Under the pieces are notes generated by a model that saw only the letters and a program-made list of their open reading frames with translations, had not been told where the DNA came from and ran no database searches. From Amphiura filiformis (taxonomy: Eukaryota > Echinodermata > Ophiuroidea > Amphilepidida > Amphiuridae), in the NCBI RefSeq assembly GCF_039555335.1, contig NC_092637.1:124001-188000 (forward strand): a stretch of DNA of 64,000 nucleotides, in the 5' to 3' direction. A program made the position numbers and the translations under genes. Shown piece after piece: positions 2,943-64,000 of this stretch. Positions within the stretch are counted from its first letter, which is position 1; every line of letters begins with the position of its first letter.

Positions 2943-3053
2943 AATCTATCTCATCGGACATATCTCTGCAGTCATCTCTTCCATTACACACGTGTTGAGG
3001 AGGAATACACCGCATGTTAACACATCGGAAATGGTCTTTGTTTGGGCATGGAC
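2943..3053 (-). CDS. LDLa exon type A (most 3' exon seen)
   Basis: 111 bases, CAG-type acceptor above and GTAAG donor below. It encodes six Cys ending [16 protein letters not shown], a complete calcium box. It follows another A exon directly, breaking the M-B-A order. It and its flanking intron bases are nearly identical to the exon at 31790-31906. No further module is seen between it and position 1. Confidence 0.85.
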
Positions 3054-15000: not shown

Positions 15001-15080
15001 TATTCATCTGTACAACTTTGACGCAAGTGTTATGAACTAAAGTTTCTTGCTCAACTTTTAGTGTTAAGGAGCGATAAATA

Positions 15081-15168
<88 letters not shown>

Positions 15169-31308: not shown

Positions 31309-31386
<78 letters not shown>

Positions 31387-37300: not shown

Positions 37301-40300
37301 GGACTAACTAAAGGATTAGGATTTAGCTATGTTTCATTTGGCAAAACAGGATAATATTTTTTTTTATCCCAAAAAATTAGTGCTGTATTTTTCTGGAATA
37401 GGGAGTAGTATTATACTAACCTAGGCCAAAGCTGGTCATTCAATTTAAGGAAGTGCCGTGTTACAGCACGAAACGTCATTGAGGTATGTCAACATCACCT
37501 ATTTTATATTGGATTTGTTTTAGAACATTGTAAATAACAATCTTTTTTTTTTTTTTTGATATTTGAAATGATTTGAGTTGGATAAGTTCAAAGCGACTTA
37601 CAGCCCATTTCATCTGCCCTGGTTTCAATGCAATCTATAAGTGAATCACACTGTAATCCTTCATCAATACATGGTCCATCTCTCGAACAGGCAAAGTTTC
37701 CAATATCGCATGGATCTAAAACGAAAAAAGTAAAAAGTAAATCCCACAAAATTGCGTCGTCTCAGCCTTCACCTATCTTTGCATTTTTATTTCGGAACTT
37801 GGGAGATGGGGATGGTGGTGGTGGTAAGTCGCCGCTATAAAGGGTGCGTGAGGCAACTCAAATTACCTGTAAAGCTCGAGCGTACACAAAAGAGACTTCG
37901 TGCCTAAGATGAGTGATGTCGCTAGGTCTGAACGTTGTACCAGCGTTAGCTGAATTCAAGTATGCTTGGAGAGTACAGACATGGAATATTCTAATATATG
38001 TGTAATTAATCTATGGGGTTTTTTTATCTATCGCTGAGATTACTCCACAAAAGGGTTGCCTATGTGTGCGGCAGTGCATGAAAGTGTCATAGGGGCACGG
38101 CTTGTGCCCCCACTCAGACCCTGTGTCCCCCAATCATGGTCGGTGACCTCCCCATGTGATGACACACGCTACGCCACTGGTTCATGACCCAGACATTGCA
38201 CACGTTATGCCGTCATTCAATCCCTAGGAGTGACCTTCGCACTGTTTTAGTTAATTAGGAGCCAGTAAAAAGGACACAATTGTTTAAGGCATGGTAATGT
38301 AATGATGAATTGGCGCAGAAGGAAATACATTGGTAGGCGTAAAGGAACAACATACCTGACTCAGTTGTCATTGCGAATTCGGTGGTAGTTTGTGGTTCTG
38401 TGGTAGCCAACAATGTCGTCAATGGTTCCGTCGTAGTCTCTAGTGTTGGACCTGAATTGAAAACAAATAGTAGAATGACTGAAAACTGATCCAAATACAA
38501 TCGGTAATATTGAGGAGTTCAGAACCAGAAAGCCGTGACTCACTAAGACCAGCTCTCACAAAATGTGTATAAAGTTAGCTCCTTGCTTTGGTCATCAAAA
38601 ATCAATATTTCCTCCCCAATGTCATTGTTTTCTATTGAATTACAATTGAATATATGAATACAAAAGCCACCCAAGTCCATACTTTGGCCAAATTGAGTTA
38701 AGCATGGGAAAGTGTTGCTATACATAGGCCTGGCATATGTGTGAAAGAACAACTCAAATTCATCCTCTGTGTCTATTGAGCATGTGAAAATAGCATGTAT
38801 GAAAGAATCAACCCAAGTCCATGATTTGAGTCTTGTAACACATTGATTGAAATCCAGTATGTATAAAAGTCCACTTGTAACACATTCATTGCTGGAGAGT
38901 GACTTTTGGAAAAAATGGGTTTAATCAAGGAAAGTGTGTGGTTTATATTACATGGCAGAATGCTTATCAACATTATACATAACTCGTCGTCCATATTCCA
39001 TAGTGGCGTATAGTGGGGCGCCGCGAATTAACAACATTTCGAGAAAATCGGGTTTGAAGAAATGCCAATTTAAAATCGAGTTGTGTAAATCAGACATTCA
39101 TTATATTTTGTAAATGATGTGAAATTTCTGTAGTAAACTAAATAGATTTTATTGTTATATATTTTTCAAAAGAAATAAATACATACTATTGCTGGCAAAC
39201 TGAAAATAAAACTATACGTCACTATGGAAAACGAACAAAACGCAATACCCTAACCTAACGTTAACCGTACGCCACCTCGGTCGCCGTGTAATCTATATGG
39301 CGTTACTTTTCGTCGTTCGTATTCCATAGTGGCGTATAGGTCCGATACGTGTACGCCACTATGACATACGATGTTTTTCATTTTGCCGATATTTCATAAT
39401 TATAAAATGTGTATAAAAAGTGGCGTATGGTCGATACGCCACTATGGAATACGAAAAATGTCACTTTGTAACTATACGCCACATTTAATTAATTAATTAC
39501 TAATTAATTAGCTAATTATGACTGATGAGACTTAGAAAAAAATGAAAGAGGACATAATTAAAAACATATGTGCCAATTTTCAAAAAAATTACCAAAAATC
39601 ACTATACGCCACTATGGAATACAGCCGACGAACTGTGTGCTTTATTTTGTATTATCTTACAAGTGGTAATCTCATTCCAACATTATTGTCTTAGTATATG
39701 ATTCAAAAAACCAAGTCCATTAAAAATTTAAAATGAACCCCACGAAGTCCCTGAAATGCTAATCGTCATACCTAATACAGTTTAACCCACCCATTTGCAC
39801 GTATAACTTACCATATTGACCAGGTAAATCTAACTAAAGGAATTAAAATGATACACAGGTTTTTTTTTTCTCAAAATCGCTTCCCATGGACTTGGGTGGG
39901 TTTTGGATTCATGTATTCAATTGATCTTACAATCCATTTCATCGTAGTTGTCGCCGTATTCATCTTCACCATTACATATCAGGTCAGTGAACGGCTCTTT
40001 TCAGAGCCACCAAAACCTTTAAAATTACAGATAGGAGAGATCTGCTTGTTCTCTGTTGACAAGGGGCATCAGTAGGCATGAGGCGGCGTACATGTCTCAT
40101 TCTTAGGTACTTTGTCCTGAAGAAGTCAGAGTTACTCCTGACGAAAGCTTGACAGGTCTAAACTTGTGCGACGGCGAATCCGCTAAAACCGACTAATCAA
40201 CCTGATATTAATAATTATTCATATTTCTTAATTGAAATAGAAATGAGTACAATTGATCTTACAATCCATTTCATCAGAGTTGTCGCCGCATTCATCTGCA

Positions 40301-43300
40301 CCATTACACATTAGGTCAGGAGCAATACACCGTAAATTAGAACATCGGAAATCGCCTTCCTGTGGACATGGACCTATAACACGTGTAATGGCTTGAGTTA
40401 ACATAGTTAATAGTATGAACATGAATTATATGTAGTAGGGTAACCGTAGGTGACATAATATTATCAGAGAGCTAGGGATATTAAAAATGAGAATTTTGTG
40501 GTAGATAAGAAAACTCAATTTTGTATACATCTCAAGTCAAAAATCAAAAGTTCTCGAAAAGTTCTTTAAGAAAACTTACTGAGAATAAGAAAAACATTGT
40601 GAAAATATAATAATATTTATTGGTTAACCCTAACCCTCCTGAATACTACAAAATACTACTTGATATATGCGCTGTTCGTGCATGCATCCCACGTGGTGTG
40701 ATGACGCAATCGCCGTAAGTGATATATAGGCACGGTTTCGCTGGCCAGCGAAGCTCAAGACCCGTGGCAAAGTGTCGCCGACCGAGTGCTTGGCATGCGA
40801 GGGGTCTTAGGTTCGAATCCCACCCAGAGCAAATATCTTCTTTCCTTCTTTTCTCTCTTTATTCTTTCCTTCTTTCCCTTCCCGTCGCCAAAAAGCCTTT
40901 AGTTTGATTTTGCACTTTTTTGGCAACTGAACTCACAGCCGATCTCGTCTGTTTTTGTTTCTTCGCAATCAAGATATTCGTCGCATACAAAATGGTCTGG
41001 AATGCATGGCCCCATAGCAGAACAAGCAAACAAGCCTAAATCGCATGGATCTGGAAAAGACAGTTTGGAATCATGACATGAAAAAACATGTATAGTATCG
41101 AACTAGTCATAACGAAATAGTCGGATAGAACTTGCTTGTGAATGTAAAGTTGGGTATTACTAAAAGTTTTGGGTTTTTTAGATGTACTGAATAAAAATAT
41201 AACAGGTGAACAATGGACGCAGTTAAAACTTATTTCAAAATATTCCTTAAGACAGCAATTTAAATTGACCTATCTACTACTAATCAGTCTGAATTTCTTG
41301 GCGAAAACGCCAACGGTTGTTATTGGCTCCGAATCCTTGTGACTTGAGGAATATTTTAATATAGCTTTTAACCAAATCAGAACAATATGGTGTTACGAGT
41401 CGTACTTGACTCAAGGCCAAAATCACCTTTTACCCGAACTCACACGAATGCACAACACAAATACACTGTTTATTTAAGCTAACAAAATCTAAGTCTTTAA
41501 TTGAAAATAGAGTATGATTGGTACATATAATAACAATATCGCATATACAATAAAATCACACAATGACAGTTTTACTCTATGACTACTTAACCAGCTGTCT
41601 TCTTGTTGGTGATCCTAGAGTTCTTGCAATGTTCTGGACGACTGATGTAATATATCCTTATTCGCTTGTCCTGCGAAAATCAGCGAAGTCCATAGTACAC
41701 TTGCATTTATAATCCTTGCGTATAAAATCCTCATACGAAAATGATGATGCTTCCTCCAATCTCCTTTGCGCTGCTATCTCCACAAATATATCTCCTTGCG
41801 CTGCTTTCTCCAAAAATGGTGTTTCTTTCACCATTCTCTCTTTCTCCAGGGAACAGGTTTCTTTAACACAGCTCCGCTGTTTTTTGACAGATGCGTGGCC
41901 TCACAAACCCAGCAAACTCCAGCAATTTGACAGAAGAACTTTTAATCCTTTGATGAGGAAGAGCACTTTTGTGTGCTCGCTGTCTTCTTCGTTGCTGTAT
42001 TAAAATTAGCTCAATTATTGGCTATATAAACTGGTTAAAATGCACTTCTTTTTTGAAGCACGAAGACCATCACACACATGTGGAGTTTCTCAATCTCCCA
42101 CGGCATTCTGTAAAGTCCCAACAAAAACCTCCAGCTTTTTATATCAGTACTCATGCAAAAAACTCATCATCTATTAATAAACCATTACTTCAATCACATT
42201 TTCACAACATTGCTGCAATCTTGGGATTTCCCAAGATTAATTATACACATTCACATTACATCACTTCCTGGGGGTTTTTCCTGATGGTGCAATAATGAAC
42301 TGGGGCTTTCCAAGTTCCAAACATAGCTCTGACTTTGTTTACAATAATTTGGGGAATTCCAAAATACAAGGGGTTTCCCATCTCATGAAATACTTTCAGC
42401 TTGTAAACAAAGTTAAATAATTAAATTAAATTAAATTACTCAGGGCACATCACACCCTCCCCCTTAAAAGAAGAAAGTTCGAATGTAATGAAAACTTTCT
42501 TAAATGTTTTCTTCTTTTACATCAACTTCAACATATTATCAACTTTGAGTATTTAACTCATCATACACAGTGACTACTTGTCACATACAACTTCCCTTTT
42601 AAAGGAAATTTTTATTTGTCAGGTTTTCTTATGCAATTCTGGACAGGGCATCAGCCATTACATTGTCTTTTCCCTTAATATGTTTGATGTCCAGATTGTA
42701 CTCTTGCAAGGTCAAACTCCACCTCACCAGTCTTTGGTTTTTGTTCTTCATCCTGTTGATGAAGGTGAGGGGATTGTGATCTGTGAAAACAAGCACAGGG
42801 TATACTGTGGTACCCAAATACACATCAAAATGTAGCAATGCTAATAGCAATGCTAAACACTCCTTCTCAATTGTGGAGTAATTTCTCTGGTGCTTGTTGA
42901 ATTTCCTTGAAAAGTAACAAATGGGGTGATCTATTTGGTCTTCATCCTCTTGCATCAACACCTCCACAGCCTATGTCACTGGCATCAACAGTCAACTTGA
43001 ACTGCTTCTGAAAATTAGGTGCAGTAAGCACTGGTGAACTCATGAGTATCGATTTGACTTTGTGAAAAGCATTTTCACACTGTTCTGACCAAATGAATTT
43101 TGCATCTTTCTTCAACAAATCAGTCAAAGGACTTGCTATCTCTGAAAAGTTTGGACAGAACTTTCTATAATAGCCAACCATTCCTAGAAATCTCATGAGT
43201 GCCTTCTTGTTTACAGGTGTGGGGTATTGCTCAATTGCTTCAACTTTGGCTTTGATAGGTTTCACCTGACCTTGACCTACAACATATCCTAAGTATGTGA

Positions 43301-58300: not shown

Positions 58301-59368
58301 TCAGTGAACGGCTCTTTTCAGAGCCACCAAAACCTTTAAAATTACAGATAGGAGAGATCTGCTTGTTCTCTGTTGACAAGGGGCATCAGTAGGCATGAGG
58401 CGGCGTACATGTCTCATTCTTAGGTACTTTGTCCTGAAGAAGTCAGAGTTACTCCTGACGAAAGCTTGACAGGTCTAAACTTGTGCGACGGCGAATCCGC
58501 TAAAACCGACTAATCAACCTGATATTAATAATTATTCATATTTCTTAATTGAAATAGAAATGAGTACAATTGATCTTACAATCCATTTCATCAGAGTTGT
58601 CGCCGCATTCATCTGCACCATTACACATTAGGTCAGGAGCAATACACCGTAAATTAGAACATCGGAAATCGCCTTCCTGTGGACATGGACCTATAACACG
58701 TGTAATGGCTTGAGTTAACATAGTTAATAGTATGAACATGAATTATATGTAGTAGGGTAACCGTAGGTGACATAATATTATCAGAGAGCTAGGGATATTA
58801 AAAATGAGAATTTTGTGGTAGATAAGAAAACTCAATTTTGTATACATCTCAAGTCAAAATCAAAAGTTCTCGAAAAGTTCTTTAAGAAAACTTACTGAGA
58901 ATAAGAAACACATTGTGAAAATATAATAATATTTATTGGTTAACCCTAACCCTCCTGAATACTACACAAAATACTACTTGATATATGCGCTGTTCGTGCA
59001 TGCATCCCACGTGGTGTGATGACGCAATCGCCGTAAGTGATATATAGGCACGGTTTCGCTGGCCAGCGAAGCTCAAGACCCGTGGCAAAGTGTCGCCGAC
59101 CGAGTGCTTGGCATGCGAGGGGTCTTAGGTTCGAATCCCACCCAGAGCAAATATCTTCTTTCCTTCTTTTCTCTCTTTATTCTTTCCTTCTTTCCTTCCG
59201 TCGCCAAAAAGCCTTTAGTTTGATTTTGCACTTTTTGGCAACTGAACTCACAGCCGATCTCGTCTCACTTTTTTGTTTCTTCGCAATCAAGATATTCGTC
59301 GCATACAAAATGGTCTGGAATGCATGGCCCCATAGCAGAACAAGCAAACAAGCCTAAATCGCATGGAT
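2943..59368 (-). CDS. Giant LDLa/mucin-linker modular gene, partial (exons listed separately)
   Basis: At least 43 small exons on the minus strand share consensus splice sites and phase 1-1 boundaries, so any module can be added or skipped in frame. Type A exons (usually 111 bases) encode a classic LDLa repeat with six Cys and a D-x-S-D-E calcium box. Type B exons (usually 114 bases) encode a divergent LDLa repeat with FxCS and GPCI signatures and a DC-x-x-T-x-x-DE box. M exons (12 to 99 bases) encode Thr/Glu/Pro runs. In transcription order the repeated block is M-B-A. The final Cys codon of every LDLa module is split across the intron (T, then GT or AT). LDLa modules bind calcium and protein or lipid ligands in extracellular proteins, so a secreted or membrane-anchored mucin-like protein is inferred. 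No signal peptide, membrane segment, start or stop codon is in the window. I do not recognise an orthologue. Confidence 0.85.
3241..3351 (-). CDS. LDLa exon type A
   Basis: 111 bases with GTAAG donor. It begins [19 protein letters not shown] and ends [10 protein letters not shown], so all six Cys and the calcium box are present. It lies 187 bases upstream (in transcription) of the exon at 2943 with no linker exon between them. Confidence 0.87.
4021..4910. mobile_element. Foldback DNA element, about 0.9 kb
   Basis: Two arms of about 350-400 bases are inverted copies: ACTTGGTGGAAAGGTAGTTT near 4118 against AAACTACCTTTCCACCAAGT near 4783, and CACCACTAATTGCAACAGAA against TTCTGTTGCAATTAGTGGTG. 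No transposase. It lies in the intron between the A exon at 3241 and the B exon at 5169. Confidence 0.75.
4917..5089. mobile_element. MITE, 173 bases
   Basis: Perfect terminal GGGTTTCTCTACTGGA with inverted partner TCCAGTAGAGAAACCC; the inverted repeats extend for about 50 bases (through CTTCCCACAATGCAAT). Confidence 0.8.
5169..5282 (-). CDS. LDLa exon type B
   Basis: 114 bases, donor GTGAGT, acceptor CAG. It encodes [17 protein letters not shown] and later [12 protein letters not shown]: six Cys, with the usual Ser of the calcium box replaced as in other B modules. Last B exon in transcription order. Confidence 0.85.
5290..7400. other. Intron sequence
   Basis: Intron between the A exon at 7406 and the B exon at 5169, apart from the candidate microexon at 6000. 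It holds a GAA/AGA-rich low-complexity stretch at 6085-6165; otherwise I see nothing. Confidence 0.6.
6000..6011 (-). CDS. Candidate 12-base linker microexon (type M)
   Basis: Twelve bases encoding Pro-Thr-Ala with split outer codons lie between a pyrimidine-rich CAG acceptor and a perfect GTAAGTT donor on the minus strand. The phase is 1-1, and the GT-CCG-ACA start matches other M exons. It sits where the M-B-A order calls for a linker, between the A exon at 7406 and the B exon at 5169. Position and splice sites are the only support. Confidence 0.5.
7406..7516 (-). CDS. LDLa exon type A
   Basis: 111 bases, GTAAG donor. Encodes [18 protein letters not shown] then [16 protein letters not shown]; all six Cys and the calcium box are intact. 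The second residue after PC is Leu instead of the usual Pro. Confidence 0.87.
7571..7762 (-). mobile_element. MITE fragment, TTTCGTGATC family
   Basis: Inverted relative of 15308-15651: it shares GTGGATCACGAAATGCCCTT at one end and a GATCTTAGCATCCTC segment at the other. Confidence 0.6.
7770..8555. other. Intron sequence
   Basis: AT-rich intron; no exon, no recognised repeat. Confidence 0.5.
8556..9590. repeat. Degenerate tandem repeat array, about 1 kb
   Basis: Recurrent blocks TTTCGCGGTTTGTGGTTCTT, GGGGCAATCTAGTTGGATAT and GGCGATCTTTCGCGGTTTGT alternate in an irregular higher-order pattern, locally richer in GC than the surroundings. No protein frame persists. Confidence 0.85.
9858..9946 (-). 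mobile_element. tRNA-like sequence (SINE head or pseudo-tRNA)
   Basis: On the minus strand: D-arm-like GTGGCGAAGCAGTTAAGACC, an anticodon arm TGGACTTCTAATCCA (loop would read TCT), a B-box-like CAAGTTCGAAAC, then a T-run terminator. The acceptor stem does not pair well, so a working tRNA is doubtful. Confidence 0.45.
9950..10990. other. Intron sequence
   Basis: Part of the 3.7 kb intron between the B exon at 11225 and the A exon at 7406. No exon or protein homology seen. Confidence 0.5.
10995..11191. mobile_element. MITE, ACTACCTGCCGATTGGCCAA family, copy 1
   Basis: About 200 bases with inverted ends (GAGAACTACCTGCCGAT and ATCGGCAGGTA). A second copy is at 16652-16862. Confidence 0.75.
11225..11335 (-). 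CDS. LDLa exon type B (short form)
   Basis: 111 bases, one codon shorter than other B exons, because the GPCI block is GECI after a shorter FACS segment. It ends [12 protein letters not shown]. Donor GTGAGT. It begins [11 protein letters not shown], with Gly in place of Pro before the first Cys. Confidence 0.85.
11450..11549 (-). mobile_element. tRNA-derived SINE
   Basis: Minus strand reads GGCTTAGGTGGGCGAATGGT, CTAAGGCGCT, and later GAGTTCAAACTC (B box): a tRNA-like head, next to the B exon at 11225. Confidence 0.6.
11550..12232. other. Intron sequence
   Basis: No exon, no recognised repeat. Confidence 0.5.
12233..12605 (+). mobile_element. tRNA-derived SINE, near full length
   Basis: Head with GTTAGCTTAATCGATAAGGC (A box) and GCGGGTTCGAACCCTTGC (B box and T arm), then a unique body ending GCGCACTATAAATCACCGCG. 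A reversed fragment of the same body is at 32019-32085. Confidence 0.75.
12637..12735 (-). CDS. Mucin-like linker exon (M), longest
   Basis: 99 bases in phase 1-1 with AG acceptor and GTACTT donor. Translation is Thr, Ser and Glu rich: [18 protein letters not shown] followed by [14 protein letters not shown]. It contains no Cys. The many Thr/Ser suggest O-glycosylation, which is inference from composition. Confidence 0.8.
12922..13173. mobile_element. MITE, about 252 bases
   Basis: Long inverted ends: ACCTGAGCGCAAGAAG with CTTCTTGCTCTCAGGT, continuing through GGCCCCTCAACATGTATACA and its complement; over 55 bases pair. Confidence 0.85.
13208..13318 (-). CDS. LDLa exon type A
   Basis: 111 bases. 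Encodes [20 protein letters not shown] and [16 protein letters not shown], with all six Cys and a complete calcium box. Flanked by a MITE (12922-13173) just downstream and by the foldback at 13529 upstream. Confidence 0.88.
13529..14023. mobile_element. Foldback MITE, 495 bases, TA target site
   Basis: Ends CACTAGGCACAAAAAGAAAC and GTTTCTTTTTGTGCCTGGTG, flanked by TA on both sides. The arms continue through CGTCATTTATAGTCATCCTT, then through GACCAAGATATGCGCCT and its complement nearer the centre. Tc1/mariner-type non-autonomous element by its TA site. Confidence 0.85.
14230..14343 (-). CDS. LDLa exon type B
   Basis: 114 bases, donor GTGAGT. Encodes [19 protein letters not shown] and ends [12 protein letters not shown]. 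Its acceptor leads into GT rather than the AT used by many B exons, so the split codon at its start differs. Confidence 0.84.
14390..14835. other. Intron sequence
   Basis: Between the linker at 14841 and the B exon at 14230. A GC-richer patch at 14705-14775 has an imperfect inverted repeat (GGCCTGCGG against CCGCAGGC). Confidence 0.4.
14841..14885 (-). CDS. Mucin-like linker exon (M)
   Basis: 45 bases encoding [14 protein letters not shown], bounded by an AG acceptor and a GTAAAA donor. Short Thr/Pro linker between the A exon at 15748 and the B exon at 14230. Confidence 0.75.
15076..15233. repeat. (GAAA)n microsatellite
   Basis: More than 25 GAAA units, then GAAATAAA variants. Confidence 0.95.
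15308..15651. mobile_element. MITE, TTTCGTGATC family
   Basis: Ends GGCATTTCGTGATCCACAG and CTAGGATCACGAAATCC are inverted; an inner hairpin CGTTCTGGTATACCAGAACG sits at 15465-15484. Related fragment at 7571. Confidence 0.7.
15748..15858 (-). CDS. LDLa exon type A
   Basis: 111 bases. Encodes [20 protein letters not shown] and [16 protein letters not shown]; six Cys and calcium box complete. GTAAGATGATT donor. Confidence 0.88.
16105..16633. mobile_element. Foldback MITE, AATACAGCACTAAT family, copy 1
   Basis: Left end ACTACTCATTTCCGAAAAAT and right end GTATTTTCCTGGAATGAGGA are inverted; the inner arms share TTTTCTGACAATCGAGTC and AGGACTTGG-type words. Full relative at 36813-37409, fragment at 25753-25890. 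Confidence 0.8.
16652..16862. mobile_element. MITE, ACTACCTGCCGATTGGCCAA family, copy 2
   Basis: Inverted ends AACCCCATGAGAACTACC and GTAGTACTCAGGGGGTT. It sits right at the donor side of the B exon at 16911. Confidence 0.78.
16911..17023 (-). CDS. LDLa exon type B
   Basis: Type B module with [20 protein letters not shown], then [14 protein letters not shown] and a GTGAGT donor. Boundaries are good to about one base. My count gives 113 rather than 114, so the last codons before the donor should be re-read before a frame is asserted. Confidence 0.75.
17030..17965. other. Intron sequence
   Basis: AT-rich intron between the linker at 18536 and the B exon at 16911; no exon seen. Confidence 0.5.
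17968..18052 (+). mobile_element. tRNA-derived SINE head
   Basis: GGTGGAGTTGATAGCACAAT (A box region) and ACCGGGTTCAATTCCCGGT (T arm with perfect stem and B box). Followed by unrelated body sequence. Confidence 0.65.
18060..18530. other. Intron sequence, possible SINE body
   Basis: Sequence following the tRNA-like head; no coding features. Confidence 0.4.
18536..18592 (-). CDS. Mucin-like linker exon (M)
   Basis: 57 bases encoding [18 protein letters not shown], phase 1-1, GTACAT donor. The PTTM start matches the linkers at 12637 and 20934, suggesting a shared origin. Confidence 0.78.
18930..18968 (-). ncRNA. Hammerhead ribozyme core, left arm
   Basis: Minus strand: CTGATGA, a hairpin stem AAGAG/CTCTT, then GAAACGTC, all core boxes in order. 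Stem III is only AC/GT, as in the short-stem hammerheads reported in Penelope-like elements. The base beside CTGATGA does not pair with the base after the cleavage site, so activity is uncertain. Confidence 0.55.
19238..19273 (+). ncRNA. Hammerhead ribozyme core, right arm
   Basis: Plus strand: CTGATGA, hairpin AAGAG/CTCTT, GAAACGTT. Stem I can start with TGG against CCA. Cleavage would follow the T after GT. Confidence 0.55.
19530..19640 (-). CDS. LDLa exon type A
   Basis: 111 bases. Encodes [20 protein letters not shown] and [16 protein letters not shown]. All six Cys are present; Asp replaces the usual Gly in the CDG position. Confidence 0.88.
20022..20135 (-). CDS. LDLa exon type B
   Basis: 114 bases, donor GTGAGT, acceptor CTAG leading into GA. 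Encodes [20 protein letters not shown] and ends [12 protein letters not shown]. Six Cys conserved. Confidence 0.85.
20380..20556. mobile_element. Small foldback element
   Basis: AATGCGTATCACTTATTG opposes AACAAGTGATACGCAT; the inner arms pair through TGTACAAAATA-like and GATGCGTCTAATG/CATTAGACACATT words. Confidence 0.6.
20653..20903. mobile_element. MITE, about 250 bases
   Basis: Inverted ends TAAGGCACGACATCTTAT and ATAAGACGTTGTGCCTAA; the inner arms pair through GATGACTCTTT/AAAGAGTCATC and TTTGCATAGTG/CACTATGCAAA. Confidence 0.78.
20934..20981 (-). CDS. Mucin-like linker exon (M)
   Basis: 48 bases encoding [15 protein letters not shown] in phase 1-1, GTAAATT donor. It lies between the A exon at 22995 (with a Penelope-like element in the intervening intron) and the B exon at 20022. 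Confidence 0.75.
21255..22771 (-). mobile_element. Penelope-like element, 5'-truncated, with 439-base inverted terminal copy
   Basis: Two 439-base arms (21255-21693 and 22333-22771) are nearly perfect inverted copies around a 639-base middle. The middle plus left arm carry a minus-strand frame for the end of a Penelope-type reverse transcriptase and a GIY-YIG nuclease. 5' truncation with an inverted terminal copy is typical of how Penelope-like elements integrate. Arm identity is near complete, so the insertion is young. Confidence 0.88.
21337..22335 (-). CDS. Penelope-like RT C-terminus and GIY-YIG endonuclease (partial)
   Basis: Open frame of 332 codons. Residues about 15-75 match the region after the RT palm ([34 protein letters not shown]). 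Residues about 185-275 form the GIY-YIG endonuclease ([20 protein letters not shown], then [11 protein letters not shown]) with the CxxC and later His residues typical of Penelope nucleases. The RT palm and anything before it are missing, so this is not a full element protein; the ATG is simply the first in the remnant. It lies in an LDLa-gene intron on the same strand as the gene. Confidence 0.88.
   Translation of the reverse strand: MNTIDTTGNIKFTFEEECEGKIPFLDTLIVRKEDGTVKLLVYRKKTHTDQYLNFDSQHPLHQKIGVIRTLLDRMHSIVSEDKDKEEEESRIRKAITNCGYPKWAFDKAKQQVEGKAEVKKNKEQKNATQETETKGMVVIPYVEGLSEKLQRIFRKHKISVAMKPHNTLKRLLVHPKDKVDTIKTSGVVYEIGCKGCDKSYIGETGRPFGVRLKEHQKDAEKVANRKYTRKNRTMSTSEQNKSAITDHIAIENHVINWDEPKLLEKDGNQQTRLIREAIWIRRRGDRTVNRDIGSYSLDHVYDPLIRTGPPRDEKIAGNSGQSGGKSGSQWSF
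22995..23105 (-). CDS. LDLa exon type A
   Basis: 111 bases. Encodes [20 protein letters not shown] and [16 protein letters not shown]; six Cys and calcium box complete. Close to the A exons at 33619 and 36328 in its CIAPDLIC core. Confidence 0.88.
23334..23447 (-). CDS. LDLa exon type B
   Basis: 114 bases, donor GTGAGT. Encodes [20 protein letters not shown] and ends [12 protein letters not shown]. Only 136 bases separate it from its linker exon, one of the tightest M-B pairs in the gene. Confidence 0.86.
23584..23670 (-). CDS. Mucin-like linker exon (M)
   Basis: 87 bases encoding [18 protein letters not shown] and then [10 protein letters not shown], phase 1-1, GTAGGT donor. Thr makes up well over a third of residues; no Cys. 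Confidence 0.8.
23760..24335. other. Intron sequence
   Basis: Between the A exon at 24343 and the linker at 23584; nothing recognised. Confidence 0.5.
24343..24455 (-). pseudogene. LDLa exon type A, frameshifted
   Basis: 113 bases where intact A exons have 111. The first half reads [21 protein letters not shown] 2-base excess near the fourth Cys codon then shifts the frame; in the expected frame the second half still reads [16 protein letters not shown], so the damage is recent or a sequence error. Splice sites look intact. The start is also unusual, with Thr in place of Pro before the first Cys. Confidence 0.75.
24500..25080 (-). mobile_element. LINE reverse-transcriptase fragment, frameshifted
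   Basis: Minus-strand pieces in more than one frame read like a non-LTR RT finger region: [19 protein letters not shown]-like text around 24850-24790 and a GFRSSRGTTDAVF-like segment around 24720-24670. Both ends are missing. Family (CR1/Jockey-like or related) not settled. Confidence 0.6.
25102..25241 (-). pseudogene. Fused linker + LDLa type B exon, frameshifted
   Basis: A linker (PTTPTASTN) runs straight into a B module ([10 protein letters not shown]) with no intron, uniquely in this gene; elsewhere M and B are separate exons. The length is 140 bases where 141 would keep phase, and one base is lost just before the GPCI block. The later bases, read in the other frame, still fit a B module ending [12 protein letters not shown]. 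It keeps the GTGAGT donor and the AG acceptor of an M exon. Confidence 0.72.
25566..25682 (-). CDS. LDLa exon type A with 2-residue insertion
   Basis: 117 bases, six more than usual but in frame. Encodes [20 protein letters not shown] and [18 protein letters not shown]; two extra residues sit just after the fifth Cys, next to the calcium box. The A exon at 31790 has an insertion of the same length in the same place. Confidence 0.86.
25753..25890. mobile_element. Fragment of AATACAGCACTAAT foldback family
   Basis: Shares CGAAATGAAACATAGC and TTATGGAAATAAGGGCCA-like words with 36813-37409 and 16105-16633. Confidence 0.5.
26239..28740. mobile_element. 2.5 kb foldback DNA transposon with terminal arms over 400 bases
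   Basis: Ends CCTGGACAACCGATTCTTT and AAAGAATCGGTTGTCCAGG (last base shared with flank). The arms (about 26239-26670 and 28300-28740) pair over their length with scattered differences, including GAAATTAATTTTCTCGG/CCGAGAAAATTAATTT and TATAGTTTTGTCAGAATTT/AAATTCTGACAAAACTAT. The interior (26680-28290) has a C-run near 27062, a local tandem duplication (27648-27720 and 27784-27850) and no transposase frame. Confidence 0.75.
28745..29390. other. Intron sequence
   Basis: No exon or clear repeat between the foldback transposon and the B exon at 29398. Confidence 0.45.
29398..29511 (-). CDS. LDLa exon type B
   Basis: 114 bases, donor GTGAGT. Encodes [20 protein letters not shown] and ends [12 protein letters not shown]. 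It is separated from its A partner at 25566 by the longest intron in the window (3.7 kb), which holds the 2.5 kb foldback transposon. Confidence 0.86.
29760..30711. mobile_element. Foldback element, 952 bases
   Basis: Ends GTTCACAAAAAATAACTCCC and GGGAGTTATTTTTTGTGAAC. The arms pair through CATAACTTGACATA and ATTCACAG/CTGTGAAT. A direct duplication inside (30110-30260 and 30460-30620) makes the structure more complex. Confidence 0.8.
30728..31051. mobile_element. MITE with TTA target duplication
   Basis: TTA at 30725-30727 and 31052-31054 flank inverted ends GGATGGTACTA and TAGTACCACC; the inner arms pair through CACTGGTAACAAAAGTTATG. A 3-base TTA target is typical of PIF/Harbinger elements. 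Confidence 0.78.
31105..31182 (-). CDS. Mucin-like linker exon (M)
   Basis: 78 bases encoding [18 protein letters not shown] and TRQMTTA, phase 1-1, GTACGC donor. Richer in Pro and Ser than the other linkers. Confidence 0.8.
31272..31410. repeat. (TAA)n / (ATT)n microsatellite
   Basis: ATT units switching to about 80 bases of AAT units. Confidence 0.95.
31471..31733. mobile_element. MITE, 263 bases
   Basis: Ends TACCGTAGAATTCCGTCT and ACGGAATTTTACGGTA; inverted repeat of about 50 bases through GCATATATGCCTCTAAACGA. Confidence 0.82.
31790..31906 (-). CDS. LDLa exon type A with 2-residue insertion
   Basis: 117 bases. Encodes [20 protein letters not shown] and [12 protein letters not shown]. 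Apart from a 6-base in-frame insertion and a few substitutions it matches the exon at 2943-3053, and the match extends into both introns. Confidence 0.87.
32019..32085 (-). mobile_element. SINE body fragment
   Basis: Reverse complement of the last part of the SINE at 12233-12605 (GTGATTTATAGTGCGCT and GTTGACCCCACAAACCTCAG). Confidence 0.65.
32088..32275. repeat. GTGTTTGCTG interspersed repeat
   Basis: Related to 80-415; ends CTTTGTGTTTGCTG. Confidence 0.5.
32687..32950. mobile_element. Foldback element with poly(A)/poly(T) ends
   Basis: GGC plus a 27-base A-run and GGTTCGTCTCAAAGCTT at the left oppose GAGCTTTGAGACAAACC plus a T-run and GGCC at the right; the inner arms pair through CAAATGCGGAAATG/CATTTCGCATTTG. 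Confidence 0.72.
33121..33234 (-). CDS. LDLa exon type B
   Basis: 114 bases, donor GTGAGT. Encodes [20 protein letters not shown] and ends [12 protein letters not shown]. It follows the A exon at 33619 by 384 bases with no convincing linker exon between. Confidence 0.87.
33619..33729 (-). CDS. LDLa exon type A
   Basis: 111 bases. Encodes [20 protein letters not shown] and [16 protein letters not shown]. The opening PCP is replaced by ECK, the most divergent start among the A exons; six Cys remain. Confidence 0.86.
34140..34253 (-). CDS. LDLa exon type B
   Basis: 114 bases, donor GTGAGT. Encodes [20 protein letters not shown] and ends [16 protein letters not shown] is replaced by GECM. Confidence 0.85.
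34318..34670. mobile_element. MITE, 353 bases
   Basis: Ends CCGTAGAAGTGACATAAT and ATTACGTCACTTCTACGG; arms of about 70 bases through CGGATTAACTACCATAGC. Confidence 0.85.
34706..34777 (-). CDS. Mucin-like linker exon (M)
   Basis: 72 bases encoding [18 protein letters not shown] then MTTNS, GTAAGC donor, phase 1-1. A foldback element (34318-34670) fills the intron on its 3' side. Confidence 0.8.
35195..35305 (-). CDS. LDLa exon type A
   Basis: 111 bases. Encodes [20 protein letters not shown] and [16 protein letters not shown]; all six Cys and calcium box present, Ala before the first Cys. Confidence 0.88.
35306..35688. other. Intron sequence
   Basis: Nothing recognised between the A exon at 35195 and the B exon at 35689. 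Confidence 0.5.
35689..35802 (-). CDS. LDLa exon type B
   Basis: 114 bases, donor GTAAGT rather than GTGAGT. Encodes [20 protein letters not shown] and ends [16 protein letters not shown] is GSCI here. Its linker lies only 124 bases upstream. Confidence 0.85.
35927..35962 (-). CDS. Mucin-like linker exon (M), short
   Basis: 36 bases encoding [13 protein letters not shown] acceptor followed by GC, GTATGT donor. Shortest linker apart from the 12-base candidate at 6000. Confidence 0.75.
36328..36438 (-). CDS. LDLa exon type A, altered calcium box
   Basis: 111 bases. Encodes [20 protein letters not shown] and [16 protein letters not shown]. The Ser of the SDE box is Phe, a change that may weaken the fold or calcium site; six Cys intact. 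Confidence 0.87.
36813..37409. mobile_element. Foldback MITE, AATACAGCACTAAT family, copy 2
   Basis: Ends AACTACTCCCCATTCCAG and CTGGAATAGGGAGTAGT; the arms pair through AATACAGCACTAATTTTT and CTAAATCCTAATCCTTTAGT. About 600 bases, same family as 16105-16633. Confidence 0.85.
37602..37715 (-). CDS. LDLa exon type B
   Basis: 114 bases, donor GTAAGT. Encodes [20 protein letters not shown] and ends [12 protein letters not shown]. It is the first B exon downstream of the tandem triplication and about 60% alike by eye to the triplicated B exon. Confidence 0.86.
37716..38147. other. Intron left of the tandem array
   Basis: Unique sequence between the B exon at 37602 and the start of the tandem duplication; no exon seen. 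Confidence 0.5.
38356..38451 (-). CDS. Mucin-like linker exon (M), tandem copy 1
   Basis: 96 bases encoding [18 protein letters not shown] and [13 protein letters not shown], phase 1-1, GTATGT donor. Repeated without coding change at 47516 and 56677. Confidence 0.83.
38994..39621. mobile_element. Palindromic MITE, tandem copy 1
   Basis: The ends are TATTCCATAGTGGCGTATAG and its reverse complement. The same core, CCATAGTGGCGTATAG, recurs inside in both orientations (near 39330, 39420, 39440). Flanking TA is compatible with a Tc1/mariner-type target site. No coding capacity. It lies in the intron between the A exon at 40263 and the linker at 38356. Confidence 0.75.
39931..39988 (-). pseudogene. 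Truncated LDLa type A exon relic, copy 1
   Basis: The 3' half of an A exon with its GTAAG donor, reading [19 protein letters not shown]. The fifth Cys is Tyr and the calcium-box Ser is Tyr. Homology stops after AGGTCAG, where a histone-type stem-loop begins. It looks like a partial duplicate of the exon at 40263. Confidence 0.75.
39991..40015 (+). promoter_or_regulatory. Histone-type 3' mRNA stem-loop, copy 1
   Basis: GGCTCTTTTCAGAGCC (39993-40008) is the canonical metazoan replication-dependent histone stem-loop: 6-bp stem, TTTC loop. It is preceded by AAC and followed by ACCAAAA. A purine-rich stretch near 40030 (ATAGGAGAGA) is in the position of a histone downstream element. No histone reading frame lies upstream; an A-exon relic abuts it. 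Confidence 0.75.
40263..40373 (-). CDS. LDLa exon type A, tandem copy 1
   Basis: 111 bases, GTAAGATC donor. Encodes [20 protein letters not shown] and [16 protein letters not shown], intact. Repeated with the same protein sequence at 49423 and 58580. Confidence 0.9.
40765..40830 (+). mobile_element. tRNA-derived SINE head, copy 1
   Basis: A-box-like CCGACCGAGTGCTTGG and B-box GGTTCGAATCCC, closer together than in a full tRNA, followed by a pyrimidine-rich TTCC/TTCT tail. This fits a decayed tRNA-like SINE about 105 bases from the B exon at 40937 rather than a working tRNA gene. Confidence 0.6.
40937..41050 (-). CDS. LDLa exon type B, tandem copy 1
   Basis: 114 bases, donor GTGAGT, acceptor CAG. 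Encodes [20 protein letters not shown] and ends [12 protein letters not shown]. Open and complete. Confidence 0.88.
41391..42454 (-). repeat. 3' LTR of Gmr1-like element, copy 1
   Basis: On the minus strand it starts TGTGATGTGCCC just after a purine-rich tract (AAGGGGGAGGG, the polypurine tract) and ends CGACTCGTAACA: TG...CA, about 1,064 bases. The 5' partner is not in the window, so no age from LTR divergence is possible. Confidence 0.8.
41391..47307 (-). mobile_element. Gmr1-like Ty3/gypsy retrotransposon fossil, tandem copy 1 (3' part)
   Basis: Minus-strand LTR element with its 3' LTR at 41391-42454, pol at about 42630-46090 and gag at about 46060-47307. The order in pol is protease-like region, integrase, reverse transcriptase, RNase H: integrase precedes RT, the mark of the Gmr1-like group of deuterostome gypsy elements. 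The 5' end is cut by the tandem-duplication junction, so the 5' LTR and gag start are missing. The copy is broken, with about four or five interruptions across gag and pol. Integrase shows a zinc-binding HHCC region and D-D-E core; RT shows YVDDLIVYS; gag shows a long charged coiled coil, a SCAN-like capsid segment and one CCHC knuckle. Confidence 0.9.
47516..47611 (-). CDS. Mucin-like linker exon (M), tandem copy 2
   Basis: 96 bases identical in translation to the copy-1 linker, with the same splice sites. It would follow the copy-2 A exon and precede the copy-1 B exon in the transcript. Confidence 0.83.
48155..48780. mobile_element. Palindromic MITE, tandem copy 2
   Basis: Same element and insertion point as at 38994, so it was in place before the segment was duplicated. 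It differs by small length changes in A-runs. Confidence 0.75.
49091..49147 (-). pseudogene. Truncated LDLa type A exon relic, copy 2
   Basis: Second copy of the half exon with Tyr in place of the fifth Cys. Same break after AGGTCAG as in copy 1. Confidence 0.72.
49150..49174 (+). promoter_or_regulatory. Histone-type 3' mRNA stem-loop, copy 2
   Basis: Canonical stem-loop at 49152-49167 with AC before and ACCAAAA after, unchanged from copy 1. Confidence 0.75.
49423..49533 (-). CDS. LDLa exon type A, tandem copy 2
   Basis: 111 bases, same protein as the copy-1 exon at 40263; six Cys and SDE box intact, GTAAG donor. Confidence 0.9.
49924..49989 (+). mobile_element. tRNA-derived SINE head, copy 2
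   Basis: Same A-box/B-box pair and pyrimidine tail as at 40765, present before the duplication. Confidence 0.6.
50093..50206 (-). CDS. LDLa exon type B, tandem copy 2
   Basis: 114 bases encoding the same module as 40937 ([26 protein letters not shown]), open and complete with GTGAGT donor. Confidence 0.88.
50547..51607 (-). repeat. 3' LTR of Gmr1-like element, copy 2
   Basis: TG...CA-bounded, about 1,061 bases, preceded on the minus strand by the purine tract. It has a small cluster of substitutions near 51010 not shared with copies 1 and 3. Confidence 0.8.
50547..56468 (-). mobile_element. Gmr1-like Ty3/gypsy retrotransposon fossil, tandem copy 2 (3' part)
   Basis: Best-preserved copy. 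3' LTR 50547-51607; pol about 51780-55260, largely one long open frame; gag about 55210-56468. Approximate minus-strand order: protease-like 55210-54910, integrase zinc region 54440-54250, integrase core 54180-53800 with D, D and E in IIDCVGP, SDQGSNF and [13 protein letters not shown] 53010-52450 with YVDDLIVYS, RNase H 52215-51910 with VDASD. The 5' LTR and gag start are missing at the tandem junction. About three breaks remain, so it is a fossil. Confidence 0.92.
56677..56772 (-). CDS. Mucin-like linker exon (M), tandem copy 3
   Basis: 96 bases, same translation and GTATGT donor as 38356 and 47516. Confidence 0.83.
57315..57939. mobile_element. Palindromic MITE, tandem copy 3
   Basis: Third copy of the CCATAGTGGCGTATAG palindromic element at the same intron position. 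Confidence 0.75.
58249..58306 (-). pseudogene. Truncated LDLa type A exon relic, copy 3
   Basis: Same half exon and same junction to the stem-loop as in copies 1 and 2. Confidence 0.72.
58308..58332 (+). promoter_or_regulatory. Histone-type 3' mRNA stem-loop, copy 3
   Basis: Canonical stem-loop at 58310-58325, flanks as in copies 1 and 2. Confidence 0.75.
58580..58690 (-). CDS. LDLa exon type A, tandem copy 3
   Basis: 111 bases, same protein as 40263 and 49423, intact. Confidence 0.9.
59083..59148 (+). mobile_element. tRNA-derived SINE head, copy 3
   Basis: Third copy of the A-box/B-box pair with TTCC/TTCT tail. Confidence 0.6.
59252..59368 (-). pseudogene. LDLa exon type B, tandem copy 3, in-frame stop
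   Basis: 117 bases: a three-base gain keeps phase, but with a local change it places a TGA codon just before DEIGC, where copies 1 and 2 read EETKTDE. If real, any transcript including this exon would end here, or the exon is skipped (its phase allows that). A sequencing error is possible. Confidence 0.75.
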
Positions 59369-59707
59369 CTGGAAAAGACAGTTTGGAATCATGACATGAA
59401 AAACATGTATAGTATCGAACTAGTCATAACGAAATAGTCGGATAGAACTTGCTTGTGAATGTAAAGTTGGGTATTACTAAAAGTTTTGGGTTTTTTAGAT
59501 GTACTGAATAAAAATATAACAGGTGAACAATGGACGCAGTTAAAACTTATTTCAAAATATTCCTTAAGACAGCAATTTAAATTGACCTATCTACTACTAA
59601 TCAGTCTGAATTTCTTGGCGAAAACGCCAACGGTTGTTATTGGCTCCGAATCCTTGTGACTTGAGGAATATTTTAATATAGCTTTTAACCAAATCAGAAC
59701 AATATGG

Positions 59708-60772
59708 TGTTACGAGTCGTACTTGACTCAAGGCCAAAATCACCTTTTACCCGAACTCACACGAATGCACAACACAAATACACTGTTTATTTAAGCTAAC
59801 AAAATCTAAGTCTTTAATTGAAAATAGAGTATGATTGGTACATATAATAACAATATCGCATATACAATAAAATCACACAATGACAGTTTTACTCTATGAC
59901 TACTTAACCAGCTGTCTTCTTGTTGGTGATCCTAGAGTTCTTGCAATGTTCTGGACGACTGATGTAATATATCCTTATTCGCTTGTCCTGCGAAAATCAG
60001 CGAAGTCCATAGTACACTTGCATTTATAATCCTTGCGTATAAAATCCTCATACGAAAATGATGATGCTTCCTCCAATCTCCTTTGCGCTGCTATCTCGAC
60101 AAATATATCTCCTTGCGCTGCATTCTCCAAAAATGGTGTTTCTTTCACCATTCTCTCTTTCTCCAGGGAACAGGTTTCTTTAACACAGCTCCGCTGTTTT
60201 TTGACAGATGCGTGGCCTTCACAAACCCAGCAAACTCCAGCAATTTGACAGAAGAACTTTTAATCCTTTGATGAGGAAGAGCATTTTTGTGTGCTCGCTG
60301 TCTTCTTCGTTGCTGTATTAAAATTAGCTCAATTATTGGCTATTTAAACTGGTTAAAATGCACTTCTTTTTTTGAAGCACGAAGACCATCACACACATGT
60401 GGAGTTTCTCAATCTCCCACGGCATTCTGTAAAGTCCCAACAAAAACCTCCAGCTTTTTATATCAGTACTCATGCAAAAACTCATCATCTATTAATAAAC
60501 CATTACTTCAATCACATTTTCACAACATTGCTGCAATCTTGGGATTTCCCAAGATTAATTATACACATTCACATTACATCACTTCCTGGGGTTTTTTCCT
60601 GATGGTGCAATAATGAACTGGGGCTTTCCAAGTTCCAAACATAGCTCTGACTTTGTTTACAATAATTTGGGGAATTCCAAAATACAAGGGGTTTCCCATC
60701 TCATGAAATACTTTCAGCTTGTAAACAAAGTTAAATAATTAAATTAAATTAAATTACTCAGGGCACATCACA
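59708..60772 (-). repeat. 3' LTR of Gmr1-like element, copy 3
   Basis: About 1,065 bases, TG...CA. Near 60170 it shares the copy-1 variant and not the copy-2 variant. Confidence 0.8.
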
Positions 60773-61995
60773 CCTCCCCTTAAAAGAAGAAAGTTCGAAT
60801 GTAATGAAAACTTTCTTAAATGTTTTCTTCTTTTACATCAACTTCAACATATTATCAACTTTGAGTATTTAACTCATCATACACAGTGACTACTTGTCAC
60901 ATACAACTTCCCTTTTAAAGGAAATTTTTATTTGTCAGGTTTTCTTATGCAATTCTGGACAGGGCATCAGCCATTACATTGTCTTTTCCTTAATATGTTT
61001 GATGTCCAGATTGTACTCTTGCAAGGTCAAACTCCACCTCACCAGTCTTTGGTTTTTGTTCTTCATCCTGTTGATGAAGGTGAGGGATTGTGATCTGTGA
61101 AAACAAGCACAGGGTATACTGTGGTACCCAAATACACATCAAAATGTAGCAATGCTAATAGCAATGCTAAACACTCCTTCTCAATTGTGGAGTAATTTCT
61201 CTGGTGCTTGTTGAATTTCCTTGAAAAGTAACAAATGGGGTGATCTATTTGGTCTTCATCCTCTTGCATCACAACACCTCCACAGCCTATGTCACTGGCA
61301 TCAACAGTCAACTTGAACTGCTTCTGAAAATTAGGTGCAGTAAGCACTGGTGAACTCATGAGTATCGATTTGACTTTGTGAAAAGCATTTTCACACTGTT
61401 CTGACCAAATGAATTTTGCATCTTTCTTCAACAAATCAGTCAAAGGACTTGCTATCTCTGAAAAGTTTGGACAGAACTTTCTATAATAGCCAACCATTCC
61501 TAGAAATCTCATGAGTGCCTTCTTGTTTACAGGTGTGGGGTATTGCTCAATTGCTTCAACTTTGGCTTTGATAGGTTTCACCTGACCTTGACCTACAACA
61601 TATCCTAAGTATGTGACTGTGGCATGGCAAAACTCACTTTTTACCAGATTGACTGTCAACTGTACTTCAGACAGCTTCTCAAACAATTGATGGAGTTGTT
61701 CCATGTGTTGTTCCCAAGTTTGACTGTAAACAATCAAATCATCTACATACGCTTCACATCCCTCTATGTCTGCCACAATTTGGTTCACCATTCTCTGAAA
61801 TGTTGCTGGGGCGTTTTTCAAACCGAATGGCATAACTTTGTATTGGTAAAGACCAAATGGTGTACAAAAGCAGAAATCTCTTTGGCACGGTCTGTGAGTG
61901 GAACCTGCCAGTACCCTTTCAAAAGATCAAATTTGCTAACAAATTTTGCATTCCCAATTTTGTCTATGCAATCATCAATTCTTGGAATTGGGTAC

Positions 61996-62607
61996 GGGGA
62001 TTTGCCATTTGGTCTAATACCATTTGGTCTAATATCCATTTCGTCTACATCCATTTCATCTAAACCCATTAGGTCTATATCCACTACGTCCAATAATCAT
62101 TTGGTCCTTTAACCATTTGGTCCGATAACCATTTGGTCCGATAACCATTTAGTCTAATAACCAATATGTCTAAAACCATTTAGTCTAACAACCATTTAGT
62201 CTAATACCTATTTGGTCTATAATCAATAGGTCTAATAGTTATTTGGTCTAATACTCATTTGGTCTACAAACCATTTAGTCTAATACAAGCATTTAGTTTA
62301 TTAATAAATAGACGAAATGGTATTAGACTAACTGGTTATTAGACCATACGAGTATTAGACCTAACGGTTATTAGACCAAATGGGTATTAGACCAAATGGT
62401 TATTAAAGAAATATTAGACCAAATGGTCATTAGACTATATGGTTAGTAGACATATCGGTTATTAGACCAAACAATATTAGACTAAATGGACATTAGACTA
62501 AATGATTATTAGACTAAGTGGCAATTAGCCTTTCTGGTAATAGACCAATTGAATATGGACTAAACGGGAATTAGACGAAATGGTATTAGACCAAACGGCA
62601 ATAGACC
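61996..62607. mobile_element. 612-base non-autonomous foldback insertion with 8-base TSD
   Basis: Flanked by TTGGGTAC at 61988-61995 and 62608-62615, which occurs once at this place in copies 1 and 2. Terminal inverted repeats of about 32 bases (starts GGGGATTTGCC, ends GGCAATAGACC) bound two half-regions made of degenerate repeats: ATTTGGTCTAATAACC in the left half and its reverse complement in the right. No coding potential. An 8-base duplication fits hAT, P or Merlin-type transposases supplied elsewhere. Confidence 0.85.
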
Positions 62608-64000
62608 TTGGGTACGAGTCTGTCTTTGAATGAACATTTGCAGCTCTCATGTCTGCGACCAATCGGTATGAACCATCAGGCTTGGGAACAAGTATACACG
62701 GTGAACTCCATTCACTACTACTTGGTTCTATGATATCATTGTCTAGCATGTAATTGATCTCATTTTTGAGATGTTCCATTTTCAATGGATTGACTCTATA
62801 AGGATGCTGCTTGATTGGTTTTGTATCACCAACATCTACATCATGAAATGCAGCATTTGTTCTACTTGGCGTATCAGGAAATATATTGTCAAATTTGTGA
62901 ATCAAATTTGCAATTTGACTTTGTTGATCTTGAGAAAGATGACCTAACTTTGAGTCCAAATTAGTGAGCACATCAGAATTGTTCAATTTTACATTATACT
63001 CTTTGTGCTCCAGCTCTTTATCCTGGTCAAATGTGACATCAGAATTATTATCTTTACTCTTGTCTACATTGGCGATTTTGTCTACATCGGCATGTTTGTC
63101 TACATTATCAGCATGTTTTACTGTACACACAGGTTTTGGAATGCCACTGTCACTTCTTTCAACATACTCTTTGAGCATATTTATGTGGCATAACTGCCTG
63201 CTCTTGCGTCTACCAGGAGTCTTGATAATATAATCTACTTCACCCACTTTTGACTCTACCTCACATGGGCCATGATATCTGGCTTGTAATGGGTGTCCTG
63301 GAATTGGAAACAGTACTAGAACTTTGTCACCTGGTTTGAACACTCTCTCTTTGGCATGTTTATCATACCATTGTTTCATTTTGGCCTGACCCTGTTTCAA
63401 GTTTTCTTTGGCAATATCAGTTACTCTGTTAAGCCTATGCTTAAAATTGGAGACATAATCCAACAAATTGATATCTGATTTCTCATTGAGCCACTTTTCT
63501 TTCAACAACTTTAAGGGCCCGCGCACTGTGTGTCCAAACACTAACTCAAAAGGACTAAATCCCAAAGTTTCCTGAACAGCTTCCCTAGCAGCAAACAACA
63601 ACAAGTGTACTCCCGCATCCCAGTCCCTCTGAAATTCCAAACAGTATGTCCTGATCATGTTTTTCAATGTTTGGTGGAACCTTTCTAGTGCACCTTGTGA
63701 TTCTGGATGGTAAGCACTTGAGGTATACTGTTCTATACCTAATTGATACATGACCTGCTGAAATACTCCAGAAGTAAAGTTTGATCCTTGGTCTGACTGT
63801 ATGGACTTGGGGAGCCCCACAAATGTGAAGAACTTGGTTAAAGCTTTCACTATAGTCACTGCTTTAATATTTCTCAAGGGTATGGCTTCAGGAAAGCGTG
63901 TTGACGCGCACATAATTGTCAGAAGGTATTGATTACCTGACTTAGTCTTTGGTAGGGGCCTACACAATCAATAATAACCCTACTAAATGGTTCATCAAAG

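Follow-up and report, generated by a model that had tools for sequence, protein, structure and literature searches.

How does a gene that is built of repeated domains gain new ones? Such genes are thought to grow through the in-frame duplication of symmetric exons. This question is raised by a stretch of 64,000 nucleotides (here called the window) from the echinoderm Amphiura filiformis (NCBI RefSeq assembly GCF_039555335.1, contig NC_092637.1, positions 124,001 to 188,000 of the forward strand). Its right part holds a tandem array of near-identical units of about 9160 bp, which lie within what appears to be a long gene of LDL-receptor class A (LDLa) domains. We read this array as a recent tandem segmental duplication inside an LDLa-cassette gene, by which the gene would have grown in frame by whole cassettes, and we put the probability of this reading at roughly 0.78. 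All positions below are those of the window.

Near-identical units in a tandem array

Self-BLAST of the window revealed units that lie head to tail and are about 99.2-99.4% identical overall. The preliminary description of this DNA had proposed a triplication with copies that start at 38148, 47308 and 56469, and these starts were confirmed by self-BLAST and alignment. Three copies are indeed seen; the third is incomplete, with 6912 of the approximately 9160 unit bases lying within the window, and a count of exactly three is not established. The 7532 bases of unit 3 include 620 that are its own, i.e., a private insert of 611 bp and a 9-bp target duplication. "Three" is the number of copies visible in the window, and the array may continue rightwards.

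One self-BLAST alignment pairs 38148-52834 with 47308-61996 at 99.40% over 14,714 columns, and this row spans the comparison of unit 1 with unit 2 plus the first part of that of unit 2 with unit 3. Units 1 and 3 are 99.24% identical between 38148-43681 and 56469-61996, and a stretch of 1393 bp (43673-45065 against 62608-64000) is 100% identical between them. The exons, a decayed exon, an inverted-repeat element, a retroelement and a stretch that resembles a short interspersed element (SINE) were found at the same relative positions in the units, as had been described, with the label of the SINE being weakly supported.

The 60 bases that flank unit 1 on the left and those that flank unit 2 show no relationship (23% identity), and the edge of the array at 38148 is therefore sharp. 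This edge lies in the intron between a linker exon and an older exon (37715) of the kind referred to below as type B. The right edge of the unit lies upstream of a type-B exon, inside the retroelement. The joint between units 1 and 2 and the joint between units 2 and 3 are identical except for the length of one homopolymer, and the longest word that the flanks of both edges have in common, within about 250 bp, is 7. The two equal joints and the private insertion favour a real tandem array, although they do not prove the number three.

Each unit carries one cassette of the host gene

The host of the array is probably a long animal gene on the minus strand that is built of LDLa domains, with all exons belonging to one transcript. 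A motif search on both strands of the window found 26 LDLa domains, all on the minus strand. Exon ends were assigned to 26 of 26, giving 13 exons of type A (111 or 117 nt) and 13 of type B (111 or 114 nt). The search for exon ends required an in-phase AG, so that the start phase is partly imposed, but left the donor free; the donor was GTRAG in all 26 exons, at the phase-1 position. Nine threonine-rich linker exons have the same phase: every unit has one, and the other six lie left of the array. For the linkers, the search required a start with GT, the remainder of the Cys codon that closes the type-A domain; a final G before the donor was not required and is present in 9/9. A search of solved structures with a type-B exon returned only LDL-receptor class A (35 distinct sequences, E up to 0.1). 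In a protein tree of the 26 LDLa exons, types A and B were separate and little else was resolved (2 of 20 inner branches starred).

Along the minus strand (5' to 3'), the exons follow in the order B, A, linker, B, A, linker, repeated, and fit one another in phase 1-1. Linkers are absent or were not found at some cassette positions, and a type-B exon that starts with GT can directly follow type A and still close the Cys codon. The alternation is broken near 3.0 kb and near 24.4 kb, each time by an extra type-A exon, and two further open type-A copies lie near 13.3 and 23.1 kb. The type-A exon at 24295-24480 is frame-broken, which may reflect a decaying cassette or a sequencing error.

Every unit of the array contains one B-A-linker cassette, and the array reads ...[B A L][B A L][B A L] B A..., where L is the linker. 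The linker of each unit leads to the type-B exon of the next through an Asp codon, just as the last linker leads to the exon at 37715. When 19 exons were spliced, starting with type A of unit 3 and ending with the one at 29511, no stop appeared, and the codons that span the joints encode Cys, Asp or Gly. Since only exons already known to be open and of phase 1-1 had been chosen, and the type-B exon of unit 3 was omitted, this result tests the joint codons only. The type-A and linker exons are intact and identical in all three units, and the type-B exon in two of the three. The linker exon of unit 1 had no Pfam match. Since no unit edge falls within an exon and the exons are symmetric, each added unit can contribute 107 residues (38 + 37 + 32) in frame. 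The frame is kept through exon symmetry, and no selection is needed for this. Exon-cassette growth, as the preliminary description had put it, is thereby borne out in so far as the units lie head to tail with one in-frame three-exon cassette each; the age of the event, and with it the early stage that had been claimed, is not established.

The cassettes to the left of the array are much more diverged. The older type-A exons have a median identity of 73% (55 pairs) and the older type-B exons of 66% (66 pairs), against 50-51% for shuffled sequences, whereas the introns beside them are at shuffle level (0.50-0.51 vs 0.50-0.52). The gene had thus grown by cassettes earlier as well, and its exons were kept. 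Two type-A exons that lie 29 kb apart (2894-3091 and 31736-31944) are 90% identical over about 209 columns, which include some flanking intron. This middle-aged copy suggests that exons were gained by non-adjacent events as well. Furthermore, a stretch of 196 bp is found at 10993-11187 and 16652-16847 (90% identical), in each case in the intron directly after a type-B exon, and would be either a short mobile element or a piece common to an older cassette copy.

Mobile elements before and after the proposed duplication

To judge from its domains, the retroelement in the units is a Gmr1-like Ty3/gypsy element, with a SCAN-type gag and the integrase before the reverse transcriptase. Pfam searches on separate stop-free pieces gave the minus-strand order SCAN-gag, Integrase_H2C2, rve, Integrase_p58_C, RVT_1 and RT_RNaseH. 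The SCAN domain in gag (PF02023, 2e-10) scored 40.8 bits against a cut-off of 27, and a CCHC knuckle was recognised by eye. Pfam had no match for the piece nearest the unit edge, nor for the presumed protease piece. Relatives of the reverse transcriptase piece were sought in viral_contigs, where none of 5 pattern matches was confirmed. Each unit has one end that resembles a long terminal repeat (LTR), and no second LTR was found in the window; this bears on the completeness of the element, of which copies 1 and 2 are truncated, and not on its clade.

The open frame before the SCAN piece reaches the edge of the unit, and the edge therefore probably lies inside gag. As far as the sequence goes, copies 1 and 2 are 5'-truncated passengers of an element that was in place before the duplication. 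The earlier suggestion of three retroelement copies that arose without transposition agrees with the visible pieces, which have the same position, one LTR-like end per unit and the unit edge inside the element. It had overlooked that copies 1 and 2 lack the 5' end and that copy 3 carries a private foldback insert.

This foldback element is flanked by a perfect 9-bp target duplication, and units 1 and 2 each have a single copy of this 9-bp stretch at the corresponding site. Its halves are oppositely oriented tandem arrays of about 16 bp (Tandem Repeats Finder (TRF), 62005-62285 and 62309-62595), and the inverted arms are 72% alike, compared with 53% (s.d. 1.3) for 200 shuffles. The 38 kb on the left of the array yielded no second copy, the only matches there being of 23 bp or less. 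The insert distinguishes unit 3 as DNA in its own right and, provided that units 1 and 2 are the true sisters of unit 3, the insertion is younger than the duplication.

We propose the following course of events. The first duplication would have joined the intron point after the linker (38148) to a point in the Gmr1-like element upstream of the type-B exon. As no long homology is visible at the joint, end joining or template switching is likely for this step. The third copy may have arisen by unequal crossing-over, or by a similar homology-based event between the near-identical units, since both joints are the same. The retroelement, the decayed exon and an inverted-repeat element that resembles a miniature inverted-repeat transposable element (MITE) would have been copied passively, the protein would have grown by the residues of one cassette with every unit, and the foldback element would have jumped into copy 3 after the duplication. 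Two other causes were rejected. Recombination between LTRs does not fit, as the right edge lies in the internal part of the element, upstream of the SCAN gag piece, and not in an LTR. Recombination between longer repeats at the edges is contradicted by the low similarity and short common word given above, a rejection that covers the visible part only, as any original right-side microhomology would lie outside the window.

A bolder idea, possible but more doubtful than the duplication itself, is that the array is live and variable in copy number. The LDLa and Thr-rich (mucin-like) receptor gene would then still be growing by unequal crossing-over, with length alleles in the population. If so, the passage from one cassette to several could be watched, with the mobile elements as time marks (the retroelement before, the foldback element after).

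Observations that speak for other explanations

Several observations weigh against a recent in-frame duplication. The array is known from one assembled sequence alone, and its right end lies beyond the window, together with the original right breakpoint and the exon that precedes it. The type-B exon of copy 3 contains an in-frame TGA, which the preliminary description had missed and which results from three additional bases and one altered base next to a homopolymer. Over 9145 aligned bp, units 1 and 2 are separated by 16 substitutions and 28 insertion or deletion (indel) events, and 22 of the 25 one-base indels between them lie in homopolymer runs of at least 3, which make up 22% of the bases (binomial p 4e-12). 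The differences are also unevenly spread, with 2 of 69 events in 43148-45147 despite the homopolymer runs there (nominal p 0.0015, for a stretch that was chosen after the counts had been seen and in whose coordinates unit 3 ends at about 45065). This unevenness could result from conversion or from an assembly mosaic.

As the gene runs leftwards, a stop in the type-B exon of unit 3 would remove everything downstream, including units 2 and 1. Homopolymers are common sites of misreading, and the TGA may be a misread; alternatively, the exon may be skipped, which would keep the frame, or the allele may be broken. The last of these leads to the explanation that the duplication is real but the expansion dead, with the extra cassettes being non-coding owing to this TGA or to the retroelement, of which the new introns in units 1 and 2 contain about 5.9 kb each. 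We consider this unlikely, although it deserves some weight: the type-A and linker exons are undamaged in every unit and the type-B exon in two of three, the changed stretch lies at a homopolymer, and a symmetric exon can be skipped in frame.

The other two pairs of units were each compared over about 6900 bases. Between units 1 and 3 there are 18 substitutions as well as 20 indels, and homopolymers account for 13 of the 15 indels of one base; units 2 and 3 differ by 23 substitutions and 19 indels (13 of 17). When all differences are counted, one-base indels in homopolymers account for 22/44 (1 vs 2), 13/38 (1 vs 3) and 13/42 (2 vs 3), and the signal is less strong in the two pairs that involve unit 3. 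Substitution differences range from 0.17 to 0.33% across the pairs; between units 1 and 2, seven substitutions are isolated and the others form clusters of 4 and 5. The homopolymer indels and the clustered substitutions look like residual sequencing error on near-identical copies, which also counts against the duplication. Divergence therefore bounds the age from above only, and dating by divergence was dropped on these grounds. The pairwise comparison that had been suggested as a check was thus carried out for all three pairs, and it can neither date the event nor settle whether the array contains an artefact.

Such an artefact might concern the number of copies, if a real array of two units (or a longer one) had been walked the wrong number of times by the assembler. 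The units are near-identical and perhaps longer than many reads, their one-base indels are of the homopolymer type, and the 1393-bp stretch is the same in units 1 and 3, all of which favour an error of this kind. However, the foldback insert with its own target duplication sets copy 3 apart, and units 1 and 2 differ by substitutions as well as indels, so that we regard a wrong copy number as improbable. The array could also be real but have formed through an extrachromosomal circle that re-inserted, or through rolling replication, instead of through end joining and later unequal crossing-over. Head-to-tail copies, the same joint and little divergence would fit this route equally well, but it has no specific sign here and the cassettes of the array follow on, in the same order, from those of the gene to its left; we hold it to be quite improbable. 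Finally, heterozygous haplotypes of wild invertebrates can show 99.2-99.4% identity, the foldback insert could be a polymorphism and the right flank is not in the window, but if haplotypes with a single real copy each, or chimeric reads, had been strung together, one would hardly expect two joints at the same place that fuse the frame of the retroelement to the intron at 38148, and we give very little credence to an array that is an artefact as a whole. A recent tandem segmental duplication inside the LDLa gene is the reading that we prefer.

Features of the array and its surroundings

The features of the array and of the host gene are listed in Table 1. The SINE-like stretch contains what we take to be a B-box-like motif. 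No tRNA was called in it by ARAGORN, and only its CTTT part was seen again in the 38 kb to the left. Rfam gave no match at gathering scores. Just left of the array lies a further inverted-repeat element (36810-37413), with arms of about 187 bp that are 86% alike; part of it (36896-37408) is 78% like 16147-16633. An element fragment at 21255-22771 has a GIY-YIG domain (Pfam 2.1e-05, open reading frame 21340-22392 on the minus strand) and presumably belongs to a Penelope-like element. It has an inverted copy of its 439-bp end (21255-21693 and 22333-22771) that is 99.1% identical without gaps, which suggests that the fragment is a young insertion. Imperfect tandem repeats of about 310 and 365 bp were found at 8558-9457.

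Table 1. Coordinates of the tandem array, the exons of the host gene and the associated repeats.
Feature	Position	Strand	Details
Unit 1 of tandem array	38148..47307	.	9160 bp; self-BLAST and alignment
Unit 2 of tandem array	47308..56468	.	9161 bp; self-BLAST, alignment and joint comparison
Unit 3 of tandem array	56469..64000	.	7532 bp, ended by the window end
Thr-rich linker exon L, unit 1	38356..38451	-	96 nt, phase 1-1
LDLa type-A exon, unit 1	40263..40373	-	111 nt, phase 1-1; Pfam Ldl_recept_a 3e-09
LDLa type-B exon, unit 1	40937..41050	-	114 nt, phase 1-1; Pfam Ldl_recept_a 3.6e-05, barely passing (24.3 bits vs cut-off 24.1)
Linker exon L, unit 2	47516..47611	-	
LDLa type-A exon, unit 2	49423..49533	-	
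LDLa type-B exon, unit 2	50093..50206	-	
Linker exon L, unit 3	56677..56772	-	
LDLa type-A exon, unit 3	58580..58690	-	
LDLa type-B exon, unit 3	59252..59368	-	in-frame TGA as assembled; ends set by hand
Older part of the same gene	2943..36438	-	LDLa exons with splice sites (10 of type A, 10 of type B), near-regular B-A(-L); also two more open type-A matches, a third that is frame-broken, and 6 linkers
Older type-B exon left of array	37602..37715	-	next exon after linker 38356-38451
Presumed 3' LTR, unit 1	41391..42454	-	1064 bp; ends inferred from TG...CA and purine tract
Presumed 3' LTR, other copies	50547-51607 and 59708-60772		99.0 and 99.3% alike
Retroelement internal part, unit 1	42455..47307	-	gag with SCAN, protease region (by eye), integrase, reverse transcriptase, RNase H
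Retroelement internal part, unit 2	51608..56468	-	
Retroelement internal part, unit 3	60773..64000	-	split by foldback insert, ended by the window end
Private foldback element, unit 3	61997..62607	.	611 bp; arms of ~16-bp tandem units
9-bp target duplications of foldback element	61988-61996 and 62608-62616		
Decayed, truncated type-A exon (relic), unit 1	39911..39987	-	88% identical to 40243-40319
Decayed type-A exon, units 2 and 3	~49077-49146 (unit 2); ~58235-58304 (unit 3)	-	
Inverted-repeat (MITE-like) element	38643..39923	.	38-nt ends, 92% complementary
Nested inverted-repeat element inside MITE-like element	38977-39638		
Possible tRNA-derived SINE	40660..40900	+	weakly supported, ends by eye; CTTT-rich tail, TRF 40837-40877

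Comparison with known systems

The two mobile elements that order the events each resemble a described group. Passages of PMC3587641 define Gmr1-like elements by the integrase before the reverse transcriptase, and according to passages of PMC4131045 and PMC3424704, over half of the frog Gmr elements have SCAN, which is itself derived from the Gmr1-like gag. The element found here shares this order and the SCAN-type gag. It differs in that copies 1 and 2 have lost their 5' end at the edge of the duplication, while copy 3 is interrupted and leaves the window. Copies of a mobile element can thus multiply without moving, in truncated form. Foldback transposons, such as Drosophila FB, Tetris and a sea urchin element, have long inverted arms of short tandem repeats, as does the insert in unit 3. 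The 9-bp target duplication of this insert is likewise shared with them; excerpts of PMC4079207 give target duplications of 8-10 bp for Tetris and also name the foldback element of the sea urchin. The unit-3 element differs in its own repeat of about 16 bp, and it has no second copy in the 38 kb on the left from which a family could be defined.

Among the literature matches listed, nothing was found on this nameless locus. Two human systems are close to it in structure. The triplicate region of nebulin (NEB) is described in PMC9109913 as three blocks, each of about 10 kb and eight exons, and its copy number varies. Like the array described here, it consists of three similar blocks of about 10 kb with whole exons in one giant repeat-domain gene; unlike the eight exons per block of NEB, a unit here has three, which encode LDLa domains and a Thr-rich linker, as well as a retroelement. 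In LPA, passages of PMC4378929 describe the KIV-2 unit of about 5.5 kb as two exons and two introns that are repeated in tandem within one gene, with 1 to >40 copies in people; "amazingly little" variation has been reported for the array. The shared feature is a multi-exon unit that is tandemly repeated inside one gene, whereas the domain is another, and three copies are seen here in one assembly as against 1 to >40.

On the evidence of its sequence, the array is the same kind of event as the NEB triplicate and LPA KIV-2, with near-identical intragenic units, edges outside exons and the frame kept. What differs in comparison with NEB and LPA is the domain, the presence of old and new cassettes in one window, and the mobile elements by which the events can be ordered. 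Within one gene, old cassettes whose introns have diverged adjoin new cassettes whose introns are almost identical. One can read together where the new unit starts on the left, how the units are joined, how the exon phases preserve the frame, and which two mobile elements order the events. The locus would stand beside NEB and LPA as a further case of intragenic growth by multi-exon units.

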